Below are positions 25,243 to 54,384 of a stretch of 64,000 nt of DNA, in pieces (positions within the stretch are counted from its first letter, which is position 1; the number at the start of each line of letters is the position of its first letter). Under the pieces are notes generated by a model, which saw only the letters and a list, made by a program, of their open reading frames with translations, was not told the origin of the DNA and did no database searches. A program made the position numbers and the translations under genes. Source of the DNA: Alcaligenaceae bacterium. GTDB lineage: Bacteria > Pseudomonadota > Gammaproteobacteria > Burkholderiales > Burkholderiaceae_B. Location of the stretch: positions 186,001-250,000 of the forward strand of contig JACCEP010000001.1 of NCBI GenBank assembly GCA_013416395.1. Direction: 5' to 3'.

Positions 25243-26601
25243 TCAGGCCTGCTTGGCAAACAAGGCATAAAAAAAGCCGTCATGTGCAACCCCTGTGCCA
25301 TCATTAAGCGGTAATAGTTGGCCAGGCGCCGACAAACGTACAGCATCGGAATGATGCTGTACAAACCAGGCGGCCTGCAGCTCGCCTTCTTCGGGAAAAA
25401 TGGAACATGTTGCGTAAAGCATATGACCGCCCACCTTGACAGTGTGCCACAGAGCACTGGCAATGGTGCGCTGCAAGGTGACGGTTCGTGCGATATCGGC
25501 TTCTCGGCGCAGCCAGCGTATGTCGGGATGCCTGCGCACAACACCGGACGCGGTGCAAGGCACATCGGCCAGTACGGCATCAAACGGTGTGCCATCCCAC
25601 CACGACGAAAGATCGGCGGCATCGGCGCATCGCACATCGACACGGCCCTGCGCGTCCAGGCCCAGCCGCGTGAGCGTAAGCGACACCTTTTCAAGACGCT
25701 GAGCGTCGGCGTCGAGCGCCGTCATGATAACGTCGGCGCGCTCAAGCATATGGGCCGTTTTTCCGCCCGGCGCAGCGCAGGCATCAAGCACACGCATGCC
25801 CGACTGCAGCGGCAACAACCTGGCCGCCTGTTGCGCCGCCAGATCTTGTACAGACCACCACCCCTCTTCAAAACCGGGTATGTCGTGCACCGGCTTGGGT
25901 TGCGTCAGCACCAGTGCATCGTGGCCAGCGTCAGCCGCCCCTATGCCGGCCGACGTGAGCGCACGCATGACGTCGCCCACCTCGGCACGGCGACGGTTAA
26001 TGCGCAAAACCATGGGCCCCGGAATATTCGCGGCCAATAACAAAGACTGCCATTGCGCTGGATAAGCACGGCGCAAACGCTTCACCCACCAGTGTGGATG
26101 GTTGTACAAGGCTTCGGGCTGATGTTCAATACGCTCAAGCAAGCCCGGCCGTTCACGCAAAAAGGTGCGCAGCACCCCATTTAACAAGGCCTTGTAGGGC
26201 TTGAGCTGCCGTTGCCCGCCTGCCGCCGTAACTGCCTGATCAACCACCGTATGGGGGGCATAAATCGGCGTATAACGGCGTTCAGGCGCGTCAGCAGCAG
26301 CCTCGTGCTGAAAGTGCACGGCGGCGTCGAGCAGGGCCAGCGACGTAAGCAGCAAGGCGTCAAACAAGGGGTTGGGTGGCGTGCGCTTGACCAGTTCAGA
26401 CCGAAAAGCCTTTGCCCGCCCTAACTGTCGCATGACATGAAAAGACACGGCTTGTGCGGGCGCGCGCAGCGTGGCGGGGGTGTCAGCCAGGCTGTCCGAC
26501 AACGACCGGCCGTCCAGCACCGCATGCACATTGCGGGCGCTGGCCAGGATGATGTCGGAGAGCGCGGCACTGCGAGATGAACCGGGAGAAGGGTCGGACA
26601 C
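25243..26601 (-). CDS. rsmB: 16S rRNA (cytosine967-C5)-methyltransferase RsmB
   Basis: About 452 residues: an N-terminal NusB-like RNA-binding domain (about 15-150) and a C-terminal SAM methyltransferase domain with DACAAPGGKTAHM, DVPCTASGVVRRHPDIRW (Cys) and YATCSIFPEE (catalytic Cys). It methylates C967 of 16S rRNA. I prefer the GTG at 26601, before SDPSPGSSRS, because family proteins begin close to the NusB domain. The frame is open to an ATG at 26706, which would overlap fmt by 19 bases and add a 35-residue atypical leader. It is downstream of fmt in the usual order. Confidence 0.9.
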   Translation of the reverse strand: MSDPSPGSSRSAALSDIILASARNVHAVLDGRSLSDSLADTPATLRAPAQAVSFHVMRQLGRAKAFRSELVKRTPPNPLFDALLLTSLALLDAAVHFQHEAAADAPERRYTPIYAPHTVVDQAVTAAGGQRQLKPYKALLNGVLRTFLRERPGLLERIEHQPEALYNHPHWWVKRLRRAYPAQWQSLLLAANIPGPMVLRINRRRAEVGDVMRALTSAGIGAADAGHDALVLTQPKPVHDIPGFEEGWWSVQDLAAQQAARLLPLQSGMRVLDACAAPGGKTAHMLERADVIMTALDADAQRLEKVSLTLTRLGLDAQGRVDVRCADAADLSSWWDGTPFDAVLADVPCTASGVVRRHPDIRWLRREADIARTVTLQRTIASALWHTVKVGGHMLYATCSIFPEEGELQAAWFVQHHSDAVRLSAPGQLLPLNDGTGVAHDGFFYALFAKQA

Positions 26602-26687
26602 GGGAAACCTGAAAAAAATATGTGGGTCCTGCACTTTATCATTTGCAGGCACTGCAGGGCACGCGCTATGCAACGCGTAAACCATCT

Positions 26688-43362: not shown

Positions 43363-45900
43363 TTAACCAGACATCGGCGTCAGCAAGGCAACAGGCAAGG
43401 CCGACAACACATCAGACAGCAACAACCTTCCATCAGCATCGACGCCACTTAAGACTTTGCCAGCGCTGCCTGCCAGCACATCCGCAAACCGTGCACCTTT
43501 AAGCTGGGCGGGTGGCGTCACAGCGGTATCTTGCCACCAGGCAGGTTCTGGCATCGGCAATGCCGGCACCCTGGCCATGACAGCCTCTGCACATACGCGC
43601 GGCACAATAACCACAACACTCTGATCACGCCAGGTACGTATAAAGGCCAGTGCATGCTCTTTGCGTGCGCCGGACACGTCCAGCGGCAAATAACTGCCCA
43701 CATCAAAAAGCTCGGGCTGCTTGCAACGCAAGCCCAACACTCGGGCAATCAGCGCCTGTTTGATGGCTCCCGTACGCCACTCAGGCAGTAGCTGCGCCAG
43801 ATCAGTCGTCGCGTCCAACAATGCCAACATGGCTGAGCGGGCCGTAAAATCAACGGGACGACGGTTGTCGGGATCGACAAGACTGAAGTCCCAGCCTTCG
43901 GCCCCCTGATACAAATCAGGCACCCCGGGAACAGTAAGCCGCAATAGGGTCTGGGCCAGGCTGTTCATGGCGCCAGACGGTGCAATGCTGGCAGCAAAAC
44001 GCCCAATATCGCCAATAAGTGGCCGTTCGCTGCGGTCGAGCACCAGGCTTACCAGATAGTCTTCTGCTTTTTGCTCATACCATCGGTCAGGCACCAGCCA
44101 GCCCGAACTCTGTTTGGCCTCGCGCAAGGCTTTGAGCCGCCATTGCGCCAGGCGCTGCACGTAAGCAAGCAGACCCGCATGATCATCCGGGCTCAGATCA
44201 AGCGGCCATGCACCCACCATGGTCTGAAAAAGAATATAACGCTCCCCTGCCTGTAACTTGGAGGTCAATGGAAAGGCCAAACCCGGGCGATGCAGCCAGC
44301 TGCGACTGGCCTGTATCCAGGCAGCGGGGATTTCGCTTAGCACTGCCAGACGGGCACGCACGTCTTCACCGCGTTTGTGATCATGCGTAGCAGTCGCCAG
44401 CATACTGCGCGGCGCATGGCGCGCACGCCATACATTTGCCGCGTGAAAAGCCGCCGGCGACAACGCAATGGTATCTGGATCGGAACCCACTTCATTGCGC
44501 GAAATCAGTCTTCCATACCGATAAAACACGGTATCTTCCAGCGACTTTGCTGCCAGGGGCGGCGTCAGCTGCTGAAAGCGCTTGACGGCGTCACGCTGCG
44601 GCCCAGGCGGCATAGTATTCAGATCTATGTAGCTGCGATATACCGGTAAGGTACACAACACCCCATCAAGCATGGCAGCCGTCAGGGACGGCCCCCACGG
44701 CAGTGCCGGGCCACCGAAACGCTTGGACGCTTCAATGTTTTTCAACAGCGTACGGCGTTCGGCCACAAAGTGGCGTCGCAGCAAGCGTCGGCGCACCTGC
44801 CAGACCTGCTCGGCGGCATTGCATGGGTCTCCGGACACCTCTTGCCAGGCATGAGTAAGCGCGGTTTCACTGCAGGCATCATGCAACACGGCAGAAACCT
44901 GATCCATAAAATCATAGCCAGTGGTGCCGTCAGCCTTCCAGCTATCCGGCAGGTGTTCATCAGCTGCCAGGATTTTTTCGACCACTAGCCAGGCCTGATG
45001 ATGGCGCCGCCCCTCAGGCCGGCCTGGCGTGCGCACATCAAGCGCCTCCCGCAGGCGCTGGCAGTAACCGGACGGGTCAGCCAGCCCATCAACATGATCA
45101 ATGCGAACCCCATCAATAACACCCTCTTCATACAGCCGCAGCGTCAAGGCATGCACGGCATCAAACACAGACGGTTCCTCAACACGCACGCCGATAAGGT
45201 CGTTAATTTCGAAAAAACGTCGCCAGTTGATGCAACGCGCGGCGAGACGCCAGCCTGACAAACGGTAATGCTGACGCGCCAATAGCGCTTCAAGCCGATG
45301 GCGATTGGCAAGGGTATTGTTTTCGTACAGTTTCAGCGTATCTTGCGGGAACTCTCCATTCTCGTCGAGCGAGCCCGGTGCAATCGGGTAACGCATGCCC
45401 TCGGCCTCGATAAAAAAGGTTTCGTTGTCCTCGTCCAGAGCCAGGCGTATGCGGCCGGCAGCCAGCACGCTGCGGCACGAGCCAGACAGAAACGGGGCGA
45501 GCACACGCCCCTGCAAGGTATGCACAGGCGGCGCCCAGTCAATATCAAACCAACTGGCATAGGGGCTGTCGAGACCGTGACGCAACACGTCTGCCCACCA
45601 GACATTGTCGGGATGCGCCGCCATATGGTTAGGCACGATATCCAGAACAATTCCGATATCGAACGCGCGCGCTGACTCGGCCAGGGCACGCAGGCCGTGC
45701 TCGCCGCCAAGCGCAGGGCTTACCGCGCTGTGATCGATCACATCATAGCCATGGGTTGAACCTGGGCGCGCAGTGGAAACCGGTGACAGGTACAAATGGC
45801 TAATGCCCAGCGATGAAAAATAGCTCAGATGCTGACGCACGTCGGCAAATGTGAAGCCTGCGCTTAATTGCAGCCTTAATGTGGCTCTGACAAGACTCAT
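43363..45900 (-). CDS. treY: Malto-oligosyltrehalose synthase
   Basis: An 845-residue GH13 enzyme that converts the reducing end of alpha-1,4-glucan to an alpha,alpha-1,1 linkage. It shows SYFSSLGISHLYLSPV and GYDVIDHSAVSPALGG near the N-terminus, VLDIVPNHMA, and GVRIDHVDGLADP with the nucleophile Asp. The start at 45900 overlaps the treZ stop (ATGA), supporting this over the open frame to 45936. It is the last gene of glgA-treZ-treY. Confidence 0.95.
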   Translation of the reverse strand: MSLVRATLRLQLSAGFTFADVRQHLSYFSSLGISHLYLSPVSTARPGSTHGYDVIDHSAVSPALGGEHGLRALAESARAFDIGIVLDIVPNHMAAHPDNVWWADVLRHGLDSPYASWFDIDWAPPVHTLQGRVLAPFLSGSCRSVLAAGRIRLALDEDNETFFIEAEGMRYPIAPGSLDENGEFPQDTLKLYENNTLANRHRLEALLARQHYRLSGWRLAARCINWRRFFEINDLIGVRVEEPSVFDAVHALTLRLYEEGVIDGVRIDHVDGLADPSGYCQRLREALDVRTPGRPEGRRHHQAWLVVEKILAADEHLPDSWKADGTTGYDFMDQVSAVLHDACSETALTHAWQEVSGDPCNAAEQVWQVRRRLLRRHFVAERRTLLKNIEASKRFGGPALPWGPSLTAAMLDGVLCTLPVYRSYIDLNTMPPGPQRDAVKRFQQLTPPLAAKSLEDTVFYRYGRLISRNEVGSDPDTIALSPAAFHAANVWRARHAPRSMLATATHDHKRGEDVRARLAVLSEIPAAWIQASRSWLHRPGLAFPLTSKLQAGERYILFQTMVGAWPLDLSPDDHAGLLAYVQRLAQWRLKALREAKQSSGWLVPDRWYEQKAEDYLVSLVLDRSERPLIGDIGRFAASIAPSGAMNSLAQTLLRLTVPGVPDLYQGAEGWDFSLVDPDNRRPVDFTARSAMLALLDATTDLAQLLPEWRTGAIKQALIARVLGLRCKQPELFDVGSYLPLDVSGARKEHALAFIRTWRDQSVVVIVPRVCAEAVMARVPALPMPEPAWWQDTAVTPPAQLKGARFADVLAGSAGKVLSGVDADGRLLLSDVLSALPVALLTPMSG

Positions 45901-47732
45901 GGTTGCTCCGGCACAATGGTTGCCAGTGTGGAGCACGCTCGCAGTGTACGGTTACGCGCGTCGCACTGGCGGGGCCCCTCAAAAACCACGATTTCATCCA
46001 GGCGTGCTGCTTCTATAGCTATGTCTGCATTGGAAAGATTGCAGTACACACTCAAGACCGCGCCATTATTCAGTTTCCAGGACGCCTGTACAGCCATGGG
46101 GCCAAGCACCCGCGCCGACAGGCTGCAGGCACCGTTAAGATAAGGCGTGATGAATGCATGGCGCACCCGCAGCAATTGACCATATAGGGTACGCCATGCC
46201 CGATCGCGCTCCACCGACAGACCCGGAAGCGCCATGCAGGCGTCCCATGTTTTCTTGTCATTGGGGTCAGGCAATCCAAGTGGTGCACCATCCGGATGCG
46301 TGGCGTCGGCATGCTCGCGCTGACGTCCTTCTCGTATGGCTTGTACCAACCCTTCATTCTTGAAACTGGTGAAATAAAGAAAAGGGGCCAACGCGCCGTA
46401 CTCTTCGCCCATAAAAAGCAGTGGTATCTGGGGCGTCAGCAACTGCAGGGCTATTGCCGCCCTGAGCGCATCTTCATTGTGAACACATAGTGTGCGCAGG
46501 CGCTCACCCCATGGCCGATTACCGGTTTGATCATGGTTTTGCAGAAAGAAAACAAACGAGGTCGGCGGCAAGCCTGCCGACGGCTCACCGCGTCGACGGC
46601 CTGCACGAAACGGGCTGGGCTGGCCCTGGTAGTCAAACCCTTGGGCCAGGCATCGAGCCAGACGGGAGGCAGGCTCGTCGGCATAATCAGCGTAATAGCT
46701 TTGCGCTTCGCCGGTAAGCATGTGGTGCAGCACATGGTGCTCATCATCATTCCATTGCGCATCGAAGCCAGCCTGCAGCAGCGACGCGCAGTTGTCATCG
46801 TTCTCAACAACCAGATGCACATGACGTCCGGGCATGATGGCAGCGATTTCGCGGCGTACGAACGCCGCCATTTCAATCAGCCAGTCGCGGCTCTCAATTG
46901 CATGCACGGCATCAAGGCGCAGGCCATCAAAACGGTACTCTCGCAGCCAATACAGCGCGTTCTCGGCAAAAAATGCACGCACCTGGGGTTGGCGAAAATC
47001 AATGGCAGGGCCCCAGGGAGTCTGGATATCATCCCGAAAAAAGGCAGCCGCGTAGGTATGAAGAAAATTTCCTTCCGGGCCGAAATGGTTGTAAACCACA
47101 TCGAGAAACACCTGCATGCCCAGGCCGTGCGCCGTATCAATCAGTTCTTTCAGTTCGCCGGGGCTGCCATAAGAATTTTCTGGCGCAAAAGGCAGCACAC
47201 CGTCATAACCCCAATTGCGCGCACCTGGAAAATCAGCAATTGGCATCAGCTCTATCGCGGTAACGCCAAGATCAGCAAGATCAGGCAGACGCTCTTGCAG
47301 CCCACGAAACCCGCCGAGCAAACCCACGTGCACTTCATAAAGCACGGTTTCAGACCATGGACGCCCCATCCAGCCAGCATTACGCCAGGCATAATCAGCC
47401 ACATCCACGACCACGCTAGCGTCCTGCGGGTCGCCGTCCTGCAGACGAGAGGCCGGGTCAGGCACGGCAAGACCGCTATCAAGACGAAAACTATACTTGG
47501 TGCCCGGCGCACAGTCGACGTGAACTTCGTACATGCCGGCACCCACACCACACATGGGAATCGTCTCACCCCCCGCTACCTCAAGCGCAACGCCAGACGC
47601 ATCGGGAGCCCACAGCCTGAAACGCACCCGACCGTCGGCCTGAATGACCGGCCCGTGCGTGTACTCATAGCATGGCAACCTGGAAACCACGCCAGAAACA
47701 TGTAGTGGTTTGCTTACTGCTCGCAACGACAT
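45897..47732 (-). CDS. treZ: Malto-oligosyltrehalose trehalohydrolase
   Basis: A 611-residue GH13 enzyme releasing trehalose from the TreY product. An N-terminal CBM48-like domain (RFRLWAPDASGVALEV) precedes the barrel, which has GYDGVLPFAPENSYG, VFLDVVYNHFGPEGN, FDGLRLDAVHAI (nucleophile) and the acid/base Glu in LVVENDD. It starts 28 bases after glgA with AAAGG before the ATG. Confidence 0.95.
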   Translation of the reverse strand: MSLRAVSKPLHVSGVVSRLPCYEYTHGPVIQADGRVRFRLWAPDASGVALEVAGGETIPMCGVGAGMYEVHVDCAPGTKYSFRLDSGLAVPDPASRLQDGDPQDASVVVDVADYAWRNAGWMGRPWSETVLYEVHVGLLGGFRGLQERLPDLADLGVTAIELMPIADFPGARNWGYDGVLPFAPENSYGSPGELKELIDTAHGLGMQVFLDVVYNHFGPEGNFLHTYAAAFFRDDIQTPWGPAIDFRQPQVRAFFAENALYWLREYRFDGLRLDAVHAIESRDWLIEMAAFVRREIAAIMPGRHVHLVVENDDNCASLLQAGFDAQWNDDEHHVLHHMLTGEAQSYYADYADEPASRLARCLAQGFDYQGQPSPFRAGRRRGEPSAGLPPTSFVFFLQNHDQTGNRPWGERLRTLCVHNEDALRAAIALQLLTPQIPLLFMGEEYGALAPFLYFTSFKNEGLVQAIREGRQREHADATHPDGAPLGLPDPNDKKTWDACMALPGLSVERDRAWRTLYGQLLRVRHAFITPYLNGACSLSARVLGPMAVQASWKLNNGAVLSVYCNLSNADIAIEAARLDEIVVFEGPRQCDARNRTLRACSTLATIVPEQP

Positions 47733-47759: not shown

Positions 47760-49415
47760 TCAGGCGACAGACGGGCCGCGTTCTGTTATCGAATCTGACC
47801 TTATTCCGTGTGAGATACGGCGCGATGCCAATGCCGTAGCGCCACTCTGCGACGATGGCACGGCAACGAGCGTAGATGAGGCCTTTCCCAACTGCCAGTT
47901 GCGAGCAGAAAAAATACCACGCCGACGTTCTGGAATGCGATCCAGAGCCACGTCAGGCCGTAAGCTTTGGTAAGCACTTAGGTAGGCAGGTGCCACCCGA
48001 CTCCAGCTGAAATCAAGACGCATACCATTGGCCTGCATGGACCGCCAGATAGCTGGCCGGTCATAGAGCCCCACCGCCCGGCTTATGGCATTTATCATGT
48101 CATCTGGACGGTCTCCGCTAAACAGCACGCCGGTCGCCGCCTGCATAGACTGCACCGCACACTCGGGACCGGGGTCACGTATGGTATCGACCATACCCCC
48201 GACACGCGACCCTATCGGGATGGTGCCGTAACGCATCGAATACAGCGGGGTGAGCCCAAACGGTTCGAACCGGCTGCCATGGAGCAAGATATCACCCCCT
48301 GCGTGCAGCAAATGTGCACGCTGCTCGTTAAAGCCTATACGCACACCACACCGCCCAGGGTATCGCTCAGCCATTTCCTGCAGCGCCCGCTCAATAGCCT
48401 TGTCGCCTTGCCCCATAAGGCAGACCTGCAGGCGCGGATAGGCATCCAGCGCCATGGGCAAAGCGTGCAGCGCTACATCTGCCATCTTTTGTGTTGTCAG
48501 ACGACTGCCCATTATCAGAACAATACGCGAGCTATCCTCATCAACATCAAACACCCGCTGCAATTCAGCTTTGCAGAAAGACTTGTTTTCCATATGTCGG
48601 ATTGAAAATGGTCGATTCTTCAAATATCGGTCAGCCTGAGGGTTCCATAATGCCATGTCTATGCCGTTGGGAATGGCAATGGTCTGCGACCGTCTGTGTA
48701 GTAGATCTTCTTGAAGCCCGCACCCAAACTCAGGGGTGAGAATCTCTCTGGCATATTGATGGCTCACAACGGTGATCAGGTCTGAGCAACGTATGCCTGC
48801 CTTAAGAAAATTAATACGTCCATTGTGATCCAGACACGCTTCCTGCAGCAAGGCATCTTCGTTTATGCCTATACGTGATGCACGATCGACAGAAAAGTCT
48901 CCCTGAAAAGCAAGATTGTGCAAGGTAAGCACAGAACGAACGTCATCCACACGCAGCTGACGCATAAATAGCGGCGTCAGTGCGGCATGCCAATCATGAG
49001 CGTGTACCACGTGGGGGCGCGGTACCGAAGCAATGCCGCGCGCAAGCCGTGCCGCAGCACATGACAGTGCGGCATAACGTAAGTCGTTGTCATCAAAGCC
49101 TTCGCCATCAGGCCCCACATATAGCATATCGCGGTCATACAGGGCGTCGTTCACCAGTGCCAGCACAGGTATACCCAGCTCAGGGCAATCGCCAGACAGC
49201 AATACTGCATCACCACCCGGCAGGCCAGACAGTTTCGCGACTTCATGCACGCGCTCCAGTTGCTCCACCACGCCCCTGTAGGCGGGCAAGAGCAAGCGTA
49301 CATCTACTCCATCCTCAGCCAACGCATAGAGCATGCCACTCACGGCATCGCCGAGACCCCCTGTTTTTGCGAGAGGGTAAGCTTCGGCACTCACAGCCAG
49401 TACTTTTAGTGTCAC
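47760..49415 (-). CDS. glgA: Glycogen (starch) synthase
   Basis: A 551-residue GT5 enzyme extending alpha-1,4-glucan from ADP-glucose. It has the KTGGLGD motif (residues 17-23), HAHDWHAAL, NLAFQG, IPNGID and the C-terminal GSRFEPFGLTPLYSMRYGT. The last roughly 55 residues, after the usual end near YLSAYQSL, form an Arg/Ser-rich tail absent from most GlgA. The start is GTG at 49415 with AGGAGA upstream. It is the first gene of the operon; glgC, glgB and glgX are not in this window. Confidence 0.94.
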   Translation of the reverse strand: MTLKVLAVSAEAYPLAKTGGLGDAVSGMLYALAEDGVDVRLLLPAYRGVVEQLERVHEVAKLSGLPGGDAVLLSGDCPELGIPVLALVNDALYDRDMLYVGPDGEGFDDNDLRYAALSCAAARLARGIASVPRPHVVHAHDWHAALTPLFMRQLRVDDVRSVLTLHNLAFQGDFSVDRASRIGINEDALLQEACLDHNGRINFLKAGIRCSDLITVVSHQYAREILTPEFGCGLQEDLLHRRSQTIAIPNGIDMALWNPQADRYLKNRPFSIRHMENKSFCKAELQRVFDVDEDSSRIVLIMGSRLTTQKMADVALHALPMALDAYPRLQVCLMGQGDKAIERALQEMAERYPGRCGVRIGFNEQRAHLLHAGGDILLHGSRFEPFGLTPLYSMRYGTIPIGSRVGGMVDTIRDPGPECAVQSMQAATGVLFSGDRPDDMINAISRAVGLYDRPAIWRSMQANGMRLDFSWSRVAPAYLSAYQSLRPDVALDRIPERRRGIFSARNWQLGKASSTLVAVPSSQSGATALASRRISHGIRSDSITERGPSVA

Positions 49416-49555
49416 GATTATTCTCCTGTTTAGGCATCAATAGCCACGAATGTCGCCGAATGCTATGGGTCGCCTAAGACATCACGCCTGCCCAGGTGTC
49501 TGAGCTTTTTCCCTCGGCTGCACAATTTCTGCAAAAATTACCGGTAACGTAAAAG

Positions 49556-49592
49556 CTGTCGTGGCGATACGTCCCTTTATGCGGGGCGACAG
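49556..49592 (-). other. Inverted repeat in the glgA leader
   Basis: CTGTCG and CGACAG flank a GC-rich loop region, just inside the transcript predicted from the -24/-12 promoter. It could form a leader hairpin. The 557-base gap 49416-49972 otherwise holds the two divergent sigma-54 promoters and direct repeats listed separately. Confidence 0.35.
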
Positions 49593-49609
49593 TTGTATAC
49601 CTGGTATCA

Positions 49610-49625
49610 AGCAAGATTCATGCCG
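49610..49625 (-). promoter_or_regulatory. Sigma-54 (-24/-12) promoter for glgA-treZ-treY
   Basis: On the reverse strand the sequence reads GGCATGAATCTTGCTTGAT, with GG and GC ten bases apart as sigma-54 requires (GG at 49624-49623, GC at 49612-49611). The -24 box matches GGCA[CT] and the -12 box TTGC[AT]. Transcription would start near 49599, giving a leader of about 185 bases. The element is nearly the same as that before rpoN. Confidence 0.7.
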
Positions 49626-49645
49626 GGTGACGGCTGAACGCGCGT

Positions 49646-49760
49646 CGGGAAGTGCTTTTATTCTTTTCGGGAAGGTGCAGATTCACCCGCGAGGGGATGC
49701 GTGTGCGCTCCCTGCTGCAATGCTTTAAGGCGGGCTCCCTCCAGCGATGCTTTCACGTGC
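49646..49760. repeat. Direct repeats between two divergent sigma-54 promoters (candidate enhancer sites)
   Basis: Two pairs of direct repeats lie here: CGGGAAGTGC (49646) with CGGGAAGGTGC (49668), and two 27-base units starting at 49707 and 49734 that share GCTCCCT and ATGCTTT. The second pair lies roughly 85-140 bases upstream of the -24 boxes on both sides, a usual enhancer distance. Binding is inference. Confidence 0.4.
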
Positions 49761-49873
49761 CAAGATAACTTCAGCACACATGCCCAGCGCAATCATTCAT
49801 TACACGCTAAAGAGGCGCGAGTAACTGTCTGAAATGCCATATCCCATGGGTGAAAGCCCTCAGGCCTGAAGCT

Positions 49874-49889
49874 GGGCATGCAACTTGCC
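49874..49889 (+). promoter_or_regulatory. Sigma-54 (-24/-12) promoter for the small proline-rich gene
   Basis: The + strand reads GGGCATGCAACTTGCC. GG (49875-49876) and GC (49887-49888) are ten bases apart, with a GGCAT -24 box and a TTGC -12 box. A start near 49900 would give a leader of about 70 bases before the ATG at 49973. Confidence 0.6.
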
Positions 49890-49972
49890 TGCAGAACAGG
49901 ACGCGATCAAGGCTGACATTAGGATTCGGCCGATGATTCATCGACGCGGCATTTTTTTCGGGAGGCACAACC

Positions 49973-50173
49973 ATGCAGAAACACGTACAGCCCAACCATG
50001 AGACGCGGCCACACCCAGACTTTTTGCGGGCACATGTACCCGAACCGCCAGACTCAAACCCGGAGGTTCCTCCCGAACAACCACCTCAGCCAGCCCCGGA
50101 CAGGGAAGTAGACCTTCCCCCGCGAGAGGCTCCTGAGCGGATCAACGATCCGCAATCCGGCAAAATGAGATGA
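49973..50173 (+). CDS. Small proline-rich protein, unknown function
   Basis: A 66-residue hydrophilic protein, very rich in Pro, Glu and Asp, with no transmembrane segment or signal peptide and probably disordered. I consider it real because GGGAGG sits just before the ATG and a well-formed -24/-12 promoter lies upstream. It ends five bases before the convergent response-regulator stop. No family is recognised. Confidence 0.6.
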   Translation: MQKHVQPNHETRPHPDFLRAHVPEPPDSNPEVPPEQPPQPAPDREVDLPPREAPERINDPQSGKMR

Positions 50174-50178
50174 CCTAT

Positions 50179-51525
50179 TTATCGGATGCCAGAAGCTTCC
50201 TGGATGTCGTCTTCGTCGCTCCCGTATTCCTCAAGACGGTTATAAAGCGTCTTGAGGCTGATTCCGAGCATTTTCGCGGCTGTTTTCTTGACGCCGCCAC
50301 ACTGCTTGAGCGTGGCAAGAATAAGCTGACGGTTGGCTTCAGCCAACGAGACACCCACGGCAACCATGACATCGTTATCACGGGCTGGCGCGTATTCGCC
50401 AAGCCCAAAGAAGTTGGCATCGCTTTTTATGAGGTCATCGCTAAGTATGTAGCTGCGATACACGTAATTGCGCAATTCGCGGATATTTCCCGGCCACGAA
50501 TAAGCCTGAATGGCTTCGATGGTTTCAGGGGCAAATCGCTTGCGGGTTTTATGCTCTTCATTGATCCGGGCCAAAAAATGCTCGGCCAGCATCACCACGT
50601 CGCCATCACGTTCGCGCAACGGAGGAAGTTCCAGCGGAAACACGCTAAGCCTGTGGTAAAGGTCTTCGCGCAGCACACCGCTGTCTACGGCCTGCTCGGG
50701 GCTGCGGTTGGTGGCCGCAACAATACGGACGTCGGCTTCGATTTCTTCGTGGGTACCCACACGCATGAAACGCCCGGTTTCGAGCACACGCAGCAACCTG
50801 ACCTGAAGCTCCATCGACATTTCGGTAATTTCGTCGAGAAAGACGGTACCGCCTCGAGCGCGCTCAAAGTACCCCTTGTGCTGACGATCAGCGCCGGTAA
50901 AGCTGCCTTTCTCGTGCCCGAACAGCTCACTTTCGATCAAGTTGGGCGAAATTGCGCCACAGTTGATCGGCAAAAAGGGTTTGTCGTGCCGGGGGCTGGC
51001 CAAGTGTATGGCTTCGGCGGCCAGCTCTTTTCCGGTGCCGCTTTCGCCCACAAGCAGCACCGTCGCCTGCGTAGGCGCCACTTTTCCAATGTACGTGCGC
51101 AGCAACTGCATGGCCCGAGAGGCACCTATCATTTTGTCGAATGCCTCGCCGCTGCCCGGGGCGGGCGTGGACACAAACGACTTGAGATTGTCGAGGGTAG
51201 TGCGCAAACGCCTGAGGCTAACGGGCTTGGGCAGATAATCGGCAGCACCGCACCGCAGCGCCTCAATGGCACTGTCAACACTGGAATGGCCCGTCATAAA
51301 CACGACCTGGGTACCCGCCAAATCAAGGCCCTGCCAGAACTCCATGCCATTGCCATCGGGCAAATTCATATCAAGCAAGATGACGTCTGGCTGCTGTCGC
51401 TCTATTTGTATACGGGCTTGGCGGATATCTCCGGCCATCGCAGTGGTGTAGCTTTCATCGTTTGCTATCTCAGCGATCAGTTCTCTGATGGCGGTGTCGT
51501 CATCCACAATTAAGAGGTGAGCCAT
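50179..51525 (-). CDS. Sigma-54-dependent response regulator, NtrC family
   Basis: 448 residues: a receiver domain (phospho-acceptor Asp52 in ILLDMNLPDG), an AAA+ domain (Walker A GESGTGKE at about 160-167, the sigma-54 contact loop GSFTGA at about 207-212, Walker B TVFLDE at about 227), and a C-terminal Fis-type helix-turn-helix (MLGISLKTLYNRLEEYG). The usual GAFTGA has Ala-to-Ser, a tolerated variant. No histidine kinase gene is adjacent, so it is an orphan. It probably activates one or more of the nearby -24/-12 promoters. Confidence 0.92.
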   Translation of the reverse strand: MAHLLIVDDDTAIRELIAEIANDESYTTAMAGDIRQARIQIERQQPDVILLDMNLPDGNGMEFWQGLDLAGTQVVFMTGHSSVDSAIEALRCGAADYLPKPVSLRRLRTTLDNLKSFVSTPAPGSGEAFDKMIGASRAMQLLRTYIGKVAPTQATVLLVGESGTGKELAAEAIHLASPRHDKPFLPINCGAISPNLIESELFGHEKGSFTGADRQHKGYFERARGGTVFLDEITEMSMELQVRLLRVLETGRFMRVGTHEEIEADVRIVAATNRSPEQAVDSGVLREDLYHRLSVFPLELPPLRERDGDVVMLAEHFLARINEEHKTRKRFAPETIEAIQAYSWPGNIRELRNYVYRSYILSDDLIKSDANFFGLGEYAPARDNDVMVAVGVSLAEANRQLILATLKQCGGVKKTAAKMLGISLKTLYNRLEEYGSDEDDIQEASGIR

Positions 51526-51756
51526 ATTATCTTCTTGAAAAAACTTCTCCCTGGCGGAAAATACCGCTTACTTTACCTGCAAGGCTTTAAAAAATGTAAG
51601 CCTAAGCGTTCCACCTGCTCTACTGATTGCAATACAACTACCATTACACATATCGTACGCGGTTTGCACTTTGCAATGGCAAGCCAACCTTGAAATTTGT
51701 AAGAAAAAGCGAATTTTGATACAACAATTAGCGCCTACCCATCAAAGACAAAACAT

Positions 51757-52707
51757 ATGATCAAATCTTCTAAGATATTGGGCCGATCAGCCGCTGCATT
51801 CGACCTGGCAAGGTCGATTGTAAAAGCGGCGCCCACCGACGCGAGTGTACTAATTATTGGTGAAAGTGGCACAGGCAAAGAAATCGTTGCCCGTGCACTG
51901 CATAACCGTAGCAACCGAAGCGAACAAGCTTTTGTGGCCATAAACTGCGGCGCCATCACACCGACTCTGGCCGAGAGTGAGCTGTTCGGGCACGAAAAAG
52001 GCAGCTTTACCGGAGCAGCCGCCACCAGCATTGGCTGCTTTGAGCGGGCCAACAATGGCACGCTTTTTCTGGACGAAGTAACCGAAATGCCACTCGCCAT
52101 GCAGGTGCTGTTGCTGCGCGTACTGGAAAGCGGCTCCTACCACCGCGTGGGCGGTTCAACATTGCAGGAAGTGAACGTGCGCATTATTGCCGCGACCAAC
52201 CGAGACCCCAAAGAGGCGATTCAGGCGGGGATATTCAGATCTGATCTTCTGTACCGGCTTGCAGTCTTTCCGATCAGAGTGCCTTCGCTGCGCGAACGTA
52301 AACCTGATATCGCTTACCTGGCACAGCGATTTCTCGACGAATTCAACCTTCAAGAAAACACGCAAAAGACGTTTTCCGCCGACGCGCTTCAAAACCTGGA
52401 GGCGTATAACTGGCCCGGCAATATACGCGAGCTCAAAAACACAGTAATGCGCGCCTTCATTCTGGCAGATGACAAGCTGGCCATTGCGCCCATAAACCCT
52501 GTATTTAGCGCCACCCCTCCGGAAGTCAAACACGGCTACCTGAAGATACCTATTGGCACCCCACTGAATGACGCCCAACAAGCCATCGTTACCGCCACCC
52601 TGGAACACTACGATGGTGACAAGCGGCGCGCTGCGTTAGCACTGGGCATAAGTACCAAGACGTTGTACAACCGACTGGGCCAGCCCCACAATGCAAGCAA
52701 AGATTAA
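51757..52707 (+). CDS. Sigma-54 activator without N-terminal regulatory domain (PspF-like layout)
   Basis: A 316-residue enhancer-binding protein consisting of only an AAA+ domain (Walker A GESGTGKE 35-42, GSFTGA 82-87, Walker B TLFLDE 102-107, WPGNIRELKN) and a Fis-type helix-turn-helix (ALGISTKTLYNRLG). There is no receiver, GAF or PAS domain, so its activity must be set by expression or a partner protein. It is divergent from the response regulator at 51525 and directly upstream of rpoN. The ribosome-binding site is weak. Confidence 0.9.
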   Translation: MIKSSKILGRSAAAFDLARSIVKAAPTDASVLIIGESGTGKEIVARALHNRSNRSEQAFVAINCGAITPTLAESELFGHEKGSFTGAAATSIGCFERANNGTLFLDEVTEMPLAMQVLLLRVLESGSYHRVGGSTLQEVNVRIIAATNRDPKEAIQAGIFRSDLLYRLAVFPIRVPSLRERKPDIAYLAQRFLDEFNLQENTQKTFSADALQNLEAYNWPGNIRELKNTVMRAFILADDKLAIAPINPVFSATPPEVKHGYLKIPIGTPLNDAQQAIVTATLEHYDGDKRRAALALGISTKTLYNRLGQPHNASKD

Positions 52708-52710
52708 AAA

Positions 52711-52760
52711 TCATTTCAAAATGACTTATGTTTCGACTGGCATTTCTTACACCGATCGGT
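52711..52760. promoter_or_regulatory. Two palindromes upstream of the rpoN -24/-12 promoter
   Basis: TCATTTCAAAATGA (52711-52724) and ACCGATCGGT (52751-52760) are perfect inverted repeats about 100 and 70 bases upstream of the -24 box. Either could be an activator site. The first could instead be part of the upstream gene's terminator, as it begins four bases after the stop. Confidence 0.4.
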
Positions 52761-52824
52761 AAATATACGCCTTCTTGATACCTGTTTTCATGCGTTATCC
52801 CTTAGTTTCTCTGAAAAAAAACTG

Positions 52825-52841
52825 GCATGATTTTTGCTTGA
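52825..52841 (+). promoter_or_regulatory. Sigma-54 (-24/-12) promoter for rpoN
   Basis: TGGCATGATTTTTGCTT, with GG (52826-52827) and GC (52838-52839) exactly ten bases apart, is a close match to the consensus TGGCACG-N4-TTGC. Transcription would begin near 52851, about 43 bases before the rpoN start. It implies that sigma-54 drives its own gene. Confidence 0.8.
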
Positions 52842-52893
52842 TGTGTTGGTAGACATCGTTTTTTTGTCATTCAGAAAACACAGGAGATACAAA

Positions 52894-54384
52894 TTGGCAC
52901 AGATAAGCCATGAACTGCAGGCACGTCAGCAAACTTCACTGACGCCGCGCCTCCAACAGTCTGTCAAGCTGCTGCAGATGTCTACGCTAGACTTCAACCG
53001 TGAAGTGCTTCAGGCATTGGCAAGCAACCCTTTTCTTGAAGAGCCCGATGAAGAGGCCGCAGCTTCCGCATCCGAAGACGTAAGCGTCGACGACGGCGCG
53101 GCTCCTGCCGAGTTTGACAGCGCTCACGACACAAACGGCCGAGACAACGCTGAAAATCTGGGGGCGTCAGATCAGCCAGAGATACAGCAAATCGAAGCTT
53201 CGACCGACGGCCCCACTGAGTATTCGGGGGACTACCCATCGACCAGCCAACAAAGCCATGATGGCGCCGGCAGCGATGTGGGCGAGTGGGCTCGCAGTGA
53301 GACCAGCCTGCAGGAAGCCCTGCTGGCTGACCTGACCGGACGCGCACTCAGCGAGCGCGATCACCTTCTGGCACTCTATATAATTGAAGCCATCGACGAT
53401 GATGGGTATTTGAGGGTTCCATTTGAAGAGCTCGCCGCCCCCTCTCAGTTCCAGCCGCCCGTCCAAGCCCACGAATGGGAATGCGCGCTTTCGCTGGTTC
53501 AACATTTAACAACACCTGGTATCGCTGCACGTTCATTAACAGAATGCCTGACCTTGCAACTTGAGGCCATGCCCGACGACACTGCAGGCCGCGATGCAGC
53601 CTTGCGTATTGTTGATGGCGAGCTTGAGCGCTTGGGCAGGTGTGATTATGCGGGCCTGGCACGTTTTGCAGGATGCACCGAAGAACAGGCGCGCGAAGCC
53701 GGTATGCTCATACGGCAGCTTAGCCCTCGCCCAGGCCGAAACCATACAGCCATAGACCCTTCGACCTACATTATTCCGGACGTTATCGTGCGCAAAGTCG
53801 GTCGTTTGTGGGTCGCCACCAACAACAGGGAAGCGGCACCGCAGGCCCGCCTAAACCACGCCTATGCCCAGATGTTCCGTAAAACACGCTATGACGAACG
53901 CGGGCTGATGGCACAGGCTTTGCAAGAGGCCCGTTGGCTTATGCGAAGCCTGGAGCAACGTTCGCAAACCATACAACGTGTGGCCCAGGCTATTGTTGCC
54001 CGCCAGCAGACATTTTTTGACTACGGTGAGATCGCGTTGCGCCCGCTCATGCTCAGTGAAATTGCAGAAGAGCTCGGCATGCATGAATCCACCGTTTCAC
54101 GGGCAACCAGCCACAAATACCTGGCATCGCCACGAGGGGTATTTGAATTCAAGCATTTCTTTTCACGCGAGCTATCGACGCGCTCGGGGGGCACCTGTTC
54201 AGCGGGTGCCGTTCGCGCATTAATACAGGAAATGATTGATGCAGAAAACCCAAAAGAACCACTTTCGGATGTAACCCTGGCCAGCCAACTGGCTCGCGAA
54301 GGCATTGTCGTGGCGCGTCGCACCGTGTCAAAATACCGCGCCCAGATCAAGTACCCACCGGCAGAGCTGCGTCGGGCTCCCTAA
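52894..54384 (+). CDS. rpoN: RNA polymerase sigma-54 factor
   Basis: A 496-residue sigma-54. Region I (Gln/Leu-rich, LTPRLQQSVKLLQMS, NPFLEE) is at about 1-50. An acidic region II covers about 50-120. The core-binding and helix-turn-helix regions follow (LSEIAEELGMHESTVSRATSHKY). The RpoN box is ARRTVSKYR near residue 475, with a short unusual end (AQIKYPPAELRRAP). I start at TTG 52894, where AGGAGA lies seven bases upstream and the family N-terminus begins; an in-frame ATG at 52834 would overlap the -12 promoter element. The usual lptB and hpf neighbours are absent, so this may be a second, specialised copy. Confidence 0.93.
   Translation: MAQISHELQARQQTSLTPRLQQSVKLLQMSTLDFNREVLQALASNPFLEEPDEEAAASASEDVSVDDGAAPAEFDSAHDTNGRDNAENLGASDQPEIQQIEASTDGPTEYSGDYPSTSQQSHDGAGSDVGEWARSETSLQEALLADLTGRALSERDHLLALYIIEAIDDDGYLRVPFEELAAPSQFQPPVQAHEWECALSLVQHLTTPGIAARSLTECLTLQLEAMPDDTAGRDAALRIVDGELERLGRCDYAGLARFAGCTEEQAREAGMLIRQLSPRPGRNHTAIDPSTYIIPDVIVRKVGRLWVATNNREAAPQARLNHAYAQMFRKTRYDERGLMAQALQEARWLMRSLEQRSQTIQRVAQAIVARQQTFFDYGEIALRPLMLSEIAEELGMHESTVSRATSHKYLASPRGVFEFKHFFSRELSTRSGGTCSAGAVRALIQEMIDAENPKEPLSDVTLASQLAREGIVVARRTVSKYRAQIKYPPAELRRAP

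Follow-up and report, generated by a model that had tools for sequence, protein, structure and literature searches.

Results

A second sigma-54 gene beside glgA-treZ-treY

We examined a 64,000-nucleotide stretch of DNA from an Alcaligenaceae bacterium (hereafter, the window; C11:186001-250000 in a genome of 5.08 Mb), in which a gene for a second sigma-54, here called rpoN2, lies next to genes for glycogen and trehalose synthesis. The named genomes nearest to the host are Alcaligenaceae, namely Allopusillimonas, Pollutimonas, and Candidimonas. An earlier note on this DNA had described a sigma-54 gene, two activator genes encoding GSFTGA, a small proline-rich gene, and a glgA-treZ-treY operon side by side, and Pfam, NCBIfam, and the open reading frames (ORFs) bear out all of them. 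On the minus strand, the operon begins with glgA (glycogen synthase, 47760..49415; NCBIfam NF001899, 567 bits, cut-off 459), followed by treZ (malto-oligosyltrehalose trehalohydrolase, 45897..47732; TIGR02402, 634 bits, cut-off 539) and treY (malto-oligosyltrehalose synthase, 43363..45936, with a start probably at 45900; TIGR02401, 900 bits, cut-off 499). The divergent small gene (49973..50173, plus strand) encodes a 66-amino-acid protein that is 26% proline; HVP and LPP are invariant in an alignment of 14 rows, the window's protein and 13 further ones.

The first activator gene (50179..51525, minus strand) encodes a response regulator with a receiver, an AAA+ domain with GSFTGA, and HTH_8, and no sensor kinase was recognised adjoining it. 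The second (51757..52707, plus strand) encodes a receiver-less protein with the same AAA+ motif and HTH_8. Both products have the AAA+ and Fis-type HTH features expected of enhancer-binding proteins: PF00158, PF02954, and the GSFTGA loop. We considered GSFTGA as a mark specific to RpoN2 systems and set it aside as not strict, as GAFTGA occurs at five of the related loci (L numbers throughout), in both activators in L059, L061, and L063, solely in the receiver type in L070, and also in L060. The host genome has six other activators, for which the motif scan listed no loop. The product of rpoN2 (52894..54384, plus strand) passes the cut-offs of PF00309, PF04963, and PF04552, the activator-interacting, core-binding, and DNA-binding domains. 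We moved the start of rpoN2 from 52834, as given in the ORF list, to a TTG at 52894 preceded by AGGAGA, because 52834 falls inside the gene's own -12 element.

The rpoN2 of this island is a separate paralogue of sigma-54. Another rpoN gene, rpoN1, lies at C11:456850-458211 (43% identity over query residues 144-515), and both genes are present in all five genomes of the genus, the host included. In a 64-row tree, made by a quick method with SH-aLRT support only and no bootstrap, the window's RpoN2 falls in a clade of 31 rows (support 100), apart from the genus's other RpoN. All but one of these rows carry the label of the host's family, the exception being a record named Burkholderiaceae bacterium (L062). 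A wider membership of 37 rows (support 99) takes in long branches and is less sure, and three genomes of family f31 also group with the window's RpoN2 in the quick tree, one of them on a long branch. The RpoN box differs by one change, reading ARRTVSKYR in RpoN2 and ARRTVAKYR in the genus's RpoN1; both compared RpoN2-type proteins of f31 have ARRTVAKYR. The earlier note had suggested looking for a second rpoN next to lptB or hpf: the gene exists, but in the 16 kb fetched around it, about 7 kb on each side, neither neighbour was recognised by eye or Pfam; a ferritin-family gene and prfC do occur there. Matches to rpoN on plasmids (230 records) are each below 60% identity.

Conserved -24/-12 elements near rpoN2

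The -24/-12 elements proposed before glgA (CGGCATGAATCTTGCT, 49625-49610, minus strand), the small proline-rich gene (GGGCATGCAACTTGCC, 49874-49889, plus strand), and rpoN2 (TGGCATGATTTTTGCT, 52823-52838, plus strand) were all confirmed, each with ten bases between GG and GC (GG-N10-GC). The first two lack T at -26 (non-T class), the small gene's being weak here, and the third has it (T class). A loose form of the pattern matches the window 33 times against 28.1 expected, a count reached by 22 of 100 shuffles, and was dropped as evidence. With a -24/-12 matrix, 20 of the 24 sites scoring at least 11 in the window fall inside genes, and the small gene's own element, at 11.6, is within this noise. 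Matches in the window alone are therefore not beyond chance, and our argument rests on comparison with relatives. Two strong TGGCAC-N5-TTGCA matches inside genes, at 53909-53924 (within rpoN2) and 25285-25300, are presumably chance; an intergenic match at 26657-26672 (GGGCACGCGCTATGCA, score 14.0) lies outside the island.

In relatives that keep the genes, where a loss of the matches would have counted against the earlier note's proposal, the elements persist. The glgA element is kept in all nine distinct loci, or in eight of eight on a stricter recount, since the L076 site falls under a doubtful ORF. An element of at least 11.6 is found at 10 of 11 distinct loci with the small proline-rich gene (the miss is L070, at 8.8), and this conservation raises the small-gene site above chance. 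A scripted count finds the rpoN2 element in 33 of 36 loci; as for the three misses, the L068 sequence begins at rpoN2 itself, and L059 and L115 have elements of 13.8 and 12.2 in a separate scan. The elements have the sequence properties expected of -24/-12 promoters: GG-N10-GC, a place upstream of gene starts, and conservation. We rejected one further proposal, that GGCATGAxTxTTGCTTGAT forms a special link between glgA and rpoN2. The shared stretch is real in the window, but its TTGAT tail is lost in L075, a close relative whose rpoN2 is 86% identical, TTGCTTGAT also occurs at a prpB-like gene, and the glgA and rpoN2 elements belong to different classes.

Across 37 loci, 283 noncoding upstream regions lie no more than 7 kb from rpoN2, and 106 of them hold a sense element scoring at least 12, compared with 4 of 181 unrelated control regions and 20 of 132 regions farther off (a set that includes the window's first 37 kb, which also sits in the control set). 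The reversed matrix gives 3 of 283 near rpoN2 and 2 of 181 in the control regions. We counted noncoding upstream stretches of at least 60 bp, using up to 250 bp, and dropped L046, L049, and L071 as duplicates of L075, L078, and L076 in this count and in those by class, repeat, and gene. Genes in the fetched loci were called by codon usage, which leaves some wrong starts and doubtful short ORFs (e.g. in L059, L076, and L189) and skipped the window's small proline-rich gene, which we added by hand; calling by ORF length or long-ORF training was abandoned, as it gave shadow genes or overlooked glgA.

The elements are not a property of all neighbours of rpoN2. Counted per gene (at least 40 bp of noncoding DNA upstream, score at least 11), they precede rpoN2 in 35 of 37 cases, glgA in 8 of 8, the small proline-rich gene in 9 of 10 (window excluded), GT2 in 9 of 10, BON in 5 of 5, and the sm116 family and an SDR gene in 5 of 6 each. 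By contrast, they precede none of the ansA (0/11), RluA-type (0/5), TRAP permease (0/9), TRAP binding-protein (0/9), GDH (0/6), TDH (0/4), and KBL (0/3) genes and just 2 of 41 activator genes. It could be argued that the matches are chance or inert and that the genes are transcribed from sigma-70 promoters, as the loose-pattern counts and the score of the small-gene site in the window would allow; set against conservation and a roughly 17-fold enrichment over the control regions in the right orientation, this is very improbable.

Two classes of element

When -26 is left out of the score, elements before rpoN2 have T at -26 in 30 of 33 cases and T at -10 in 31 of 33, compared with 6 and 24 of the 103 other island elements. 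Of the three non-T rpoN2 elements, that of L056 is an artefact (the match is the inverted repeat described below, and a separate site scan finds a T-class rpoN2 element there), and those of L116 and L118 come from other families. Elsewhere in the window's own genome, the prpB-like, aldehyde dehydrogenase, and carboxyltransferase genes have T at -26 and -10, like rpoN2, and each lies about 1.5 kb or less from another activator gene. The stress-type genes listed do not share this pair: in the five that have T at -26, the base at -10 is A or G. One such sigma-54 activator gene, at C11:253410-254718 (L130, L195), just beyond the window, lies near the carboxyltransferase's T-class element, a possible RpoN1 control promoter.

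Elements, rpoN2, and RpoS across the family

We called rpoN2 present in 55 of 121 genomes of the family, those with a best E of 1e-136 or lower; the strongest of the others had 2.8e-115. In these 55 genomes, non-T sites (VGGCAYRNNNNTTGCW) outnumber the reversed pattern by 1769 to 491. Genomes without rpoN2 give 832 to 358 when all 66 are taken and 576 to 270 when the 37 that reach 3 Mb are, a size floor applied solely to genomes of this kind. The non-T excess is 4.96 per Mb with rpoN2 and 2.25 without (rank test p 4.5e-9, uncorrected for kinship). T-class sites (TGGCAYRNNNNTTGCW) stand at 792 to 159 with rpoN2 and 471 to 86 without, an excess per Mb of 2.46 and 2.83, respectively (p 0.11). Over these 92 family genomes, it is the non-T excess, and not that of the T class, that goes with rpoN2. 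Among six genera holding both kinds of genome, five agree; these six include g143, whose rpoN2-less member (G371) is 89% complete, and the exception is g150 (genome G374).

These data bear on the possibility that both sigma-54 proteins read all the promoters, in which case rpoN2 would be a dosage copy, and activator or local constraints, instead of sigma specificity, would set the base at -26. Such sharing would fit the rpoN2 of Burkholderia pseudomallei, which restores amino acid use to an Escherichia coli rpoN mutant (PMC4745423), and the Pseudomonas fluorescens UK4 rpoN mutant, in which expression of glgA, glgX, glgB, glgE, treZ, treY, and treS drops (PMC8202526). It would also fit the T at -26 in five stress-type genes of the window's own genome and the non-T sites that persist in G374. 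It would not lead one to expect that the non-T excess follows rpoN2 while the T excess does not, nor the near-complete split between rpoN2's own element and those of its neighbours. The RpoN boxes differ as well (ARRTVSKYR versus ARRTVAKYR), although the f31 proteins share the RpoN1 form. We consider a shared reading unlikely, at about one chance in five.

RpoS (TIGR02394, E limit 1e-100) was over its cut-off in none of the 121 family genomes, the host's included; in other genomes of the order it passed in 7 of 15, three of which have an rpoN2-type gene. RpoN2 could thus stand in for RpoS in the family, with both existing elsewhere. Among the 40 of the 66 rpoN2-less family genomes that were searched, one (G307) has glgA at E at most 1e-60, and the 400 bp upstream of this single case contain no -24/-12 element.

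Candidate targets in the genome and at related loci

Of 34 non-T sites in the window's own genome, 12 are noncoding and precede a gene. The genes led are those for a pyridoxamine-oxidase-like protein, GlgA, a 123-amino-acid protein, hemerythrin, TreS, a PRC-barrel protein, an I78 inhibitor-like lipoprotein, a proline-rich protein, a glycine-zipper-like protein, ferritin, DUF883, and Ysc84, the last with its site overlapped by a doubtful short ORF. One further non-T site precedes a nucleotidyl transferase gene and is uncertain, as the gene start is uncertain. A glgE gene, beside a treS-glgB-glgX-malQ run, has a further element ending in TTGCC, so that with glgA and glgE/treS both alpha-glucan/trehalose gene sets found in the genome carry such elements. 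Taking relatives near rpoN2 together with the own genome, the predicted targets comprise PRC-barrel, BON, DUF883, CsbD, DJ-1, Ku, hemerythrin, ferritin, and the unlinked glgE/treS genes, a set that we take, by analogy with the RpoS and EcfG regulons, to be of general-stress type.

The island is not conserved as a unit, a point that the earlier note had proposed to check: glgA-treZ-treY adjoins rpoN2 in four of five genus genomes, and other genes replace the operon in relatives. Near rpoN2 we find treS-glgE-glgA in L050, L052, L053, L057, and L062; a glycan cluster in L047, L048, L054, L055, L056, and L067 and, in part, in L051, with a BON-domain gene in five of the seven; and DUF883 and PRC-barrel-type genes in L065 and L072, with CsbD in L072. 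In other families of the order, the neighbours are OtsA, DUF2383, BON, and DUF883 (L113) or Ku, LigD, and DJ-1 (L115). In three genomes of the same family (G240, G367, and G408), the genes led by elements of this kind differ from genome to genome and include Ku-LigD, DJ-1, topoisomerase IB, short-chain dehydrogenase, glgA, and endo/exonuclease-phosphatase genes and a small proline-rich relative.

These findings are hard to reconcile with a self-contained island, where control by RpoN2 would be confined to the adjoining glycogen/trehalose operon and rpoN2 itself. Many relatives have other genes with the same elements beside rpoN2, and in the own genome elements lead the unlinked glgE/treS and stress-type genes. 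That glgA-treZ-treY is adjacent in most of the genus, and that the repeat described below is found at glgA and rpoN2 and not at the other own-genome sites scanned, would suit so narrow a circuit, which we nevertheless regard as improbable.

Two side observations concern these neighbours. The glycan cluster that replaces glgA-treZ-treY in Pollutimonas/Pusillimonas (L047, L048, L051, L055, and L067; also L054 and L056) holds a NodU-like carbamoyltransferase gene, heptosyltransferase-type genes, and GT4, and the BON gene heading it has a -24/-12 element in five of five loci. Small hydrophilic proteins with a GRGNQ(F/Y)G motif are encoded in the own genome (L124:2116-2484, on C42; no Pfam match) and in L059 (5511-5861), L060, L061, L063, L069, and L070; -24/-12 elements precede the own-genome gene and five of the six relatives, and the motif recurs in some BON proteins (L047, L055), within their long N-terminal region.

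An inverted repeat at rpoN2 and glgA

Starting from 7-8-mers over-represented in intergenic DNA that bears elements (searching for dyads had yielded little), we derived a repeat, AAATTACCGNNNN(N)TGTAAGAA, that matches the window twice. One match is in the glgA leader (AAATTACCGGTAACGTAAAAG, 49535..49555, plus strand); the other precedes rpoN2 (52744..52765, minus strand), and 79 bp separate it from the -24/-12 element there. A half-site lies at 51698, between the activator genes. Control regions totalling 280 kb hold two matches, both at the lowest score. In a looser scan, which also yields scattered matches inside genes, the repeat precedes rpoN2 in 27 of 37 loci with a score of at least 13. 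In the four genomes of the genus that have glgA here (L075, L076, L077, and the window), a related sequence stands at a distance of 75-77 bp from the glgA element; its TTAC core is altered in L076 and L077. We infer that the repeat may be bound by the two activators. At glgA it might act from downstream of the element, serve the divergent small gene, or repress.

Discussion

We propose, with a probability of roughly two in three, that RpoN2 and its activators run a regulon of general-stress type that includes glycogen and trehalose synthesis and is probably switched on by RpoN1. RpoN2-polymerase would sit on a variant -24/-12 element, mostly without T at -26. A signal would reach the response regulator and might also reach the receiver-less activator, the two possibly forming mixed hexamers; the activators would then remodel RpoN2-polymerase and so switch on glgA-treZ-treY and the unlinked glgE and treS-glgB-glgX-malQ genes. 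The small proline-rich gene would be switched on likewise, as would stress-type genes throughout the genome. Because the rpoN2 promoter is of the ordinary (T) class, RpoN1-polymerase would probably start the cascade there. The circuit may play the part that belongs to RpoS in other bacteria, no RpoS having been found in this family.

Several observations weigh against this proposal. The -24/-12 matrix was an untrained one, and the genomes and loci are related, so that p values and counts overstate independence. The non-T excess in genomes without rpoN2 is reduced, not zero, and G374 keeps the excess of its genus (6.18 per Mb versus 5.64), perhaps through recent rpoN2 loss or an assembly gap. 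In the window's own genome, 21 of the 34 non-T sites lie inside genes or away from a downstream start, and five stress-type genes have T at -26. The repeat was not found at the other own-genome -24/-12 elements scanned, and at glgA it sits downstream of the promoter element. Both activators lie within the fetched stretch in just 12 of 27 named-genome loci, with one in 7 and none in 8; several of these stretches are shortened, and L060 would be a thirteenth with both by tblastn. Outside the family, rpoN2-type genes coexist with RpoS.

Control of glycogen/trehalose synthesis by sigma-54, as first proposed, was sound in that the elements are kept in relatives and rpoN2 keeps company with activators, carbohydrate genes, and stress genes, but it was too narrow. 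Nor is the island probably self-contained, given the other class of the rpoN2 element, the predicted unlinked targets, and the dependence of rpoN2 expression on rpoN1 in Ralstonia solanacearum (PMC4371752). A more general view, that in Alcaligenaceae a second sigma-54 with its own promoter dialect became a general-stress sigma gated by ATP-dependent activators, fed by a nitrogen-type sigma-54 cascade and built around glycogen/trehalose storage and stress proteins, we advance tentatively, at slightly less than even odds. If true, it would point to a way in which stress genes are controlled in a family that lacks RpoS and to a role for second rpoN genes such as that of Ralstonia, and it would mean that a simple promoter code, the base at -26, lets two sigma-54 proteins share one cell.

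Several known systems offer partial parallels. The note had known of no standard case of sigma-54 over GlgA-TreZ-TreY, which the drop reported in the P. fluorescens rpoN mutant qualifies; the available part of that paper gives mutant expression data, without a mapped promoter or a dedicated second sigma-54 by the operon (PMC8202526). In R. solanacearum, rpoN2 has a T-type element (TGGCACAGCCTTTGCA), like rpoN2 in the window; its role is "enigmatic" to its authors, who in the text available assign no phenotype (PMC4371752). B. pseudomallei RpoN2, likewise a second sigma-54, is required for expression of the catalase gene katE, which has a predicted RpoN box; it differs in that RpoS is said to act on katE too, and in that the available text describes no stress island, promoter class, or glycogen/trehalose link (PMC4745423). 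The sigma-54 paralogues of Rhodobacter sphaeroides are reported to have promoters that differ in the base at -11, adjacent to the -12 element (PMC3162934); in our case the contrast is strongest at -26, and -10 and -11 are shifted too. According to a profiling paper, Campylobacter jejuni, which is without RpoS, relies on RpoN. A Bordetella sRNA paper (PMC11722255) was discarded as a parallel, since the part available concerns another activator.

In the one open-access library searched, we found no description of a sigma-54 paralogue as a general-stress sigma with a stress island; the parts are of known kinds, and the combination appears new. The known general stress responses are run by sigma-70-type factors: RpoS, SigB, and EcfG belong to the sigma-70 family and are controlled by stability, anti-sigma factors, or partner switching. 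The system in the window would resemble these in having one alternative sigma, a broad protective gene set, and similar gene types. Unlike them, it would use sigma-54, which needs an ATPase activator, and a stress response of this kind would be gated differently, as the polymerase can wait at the promoter until the activator fires.

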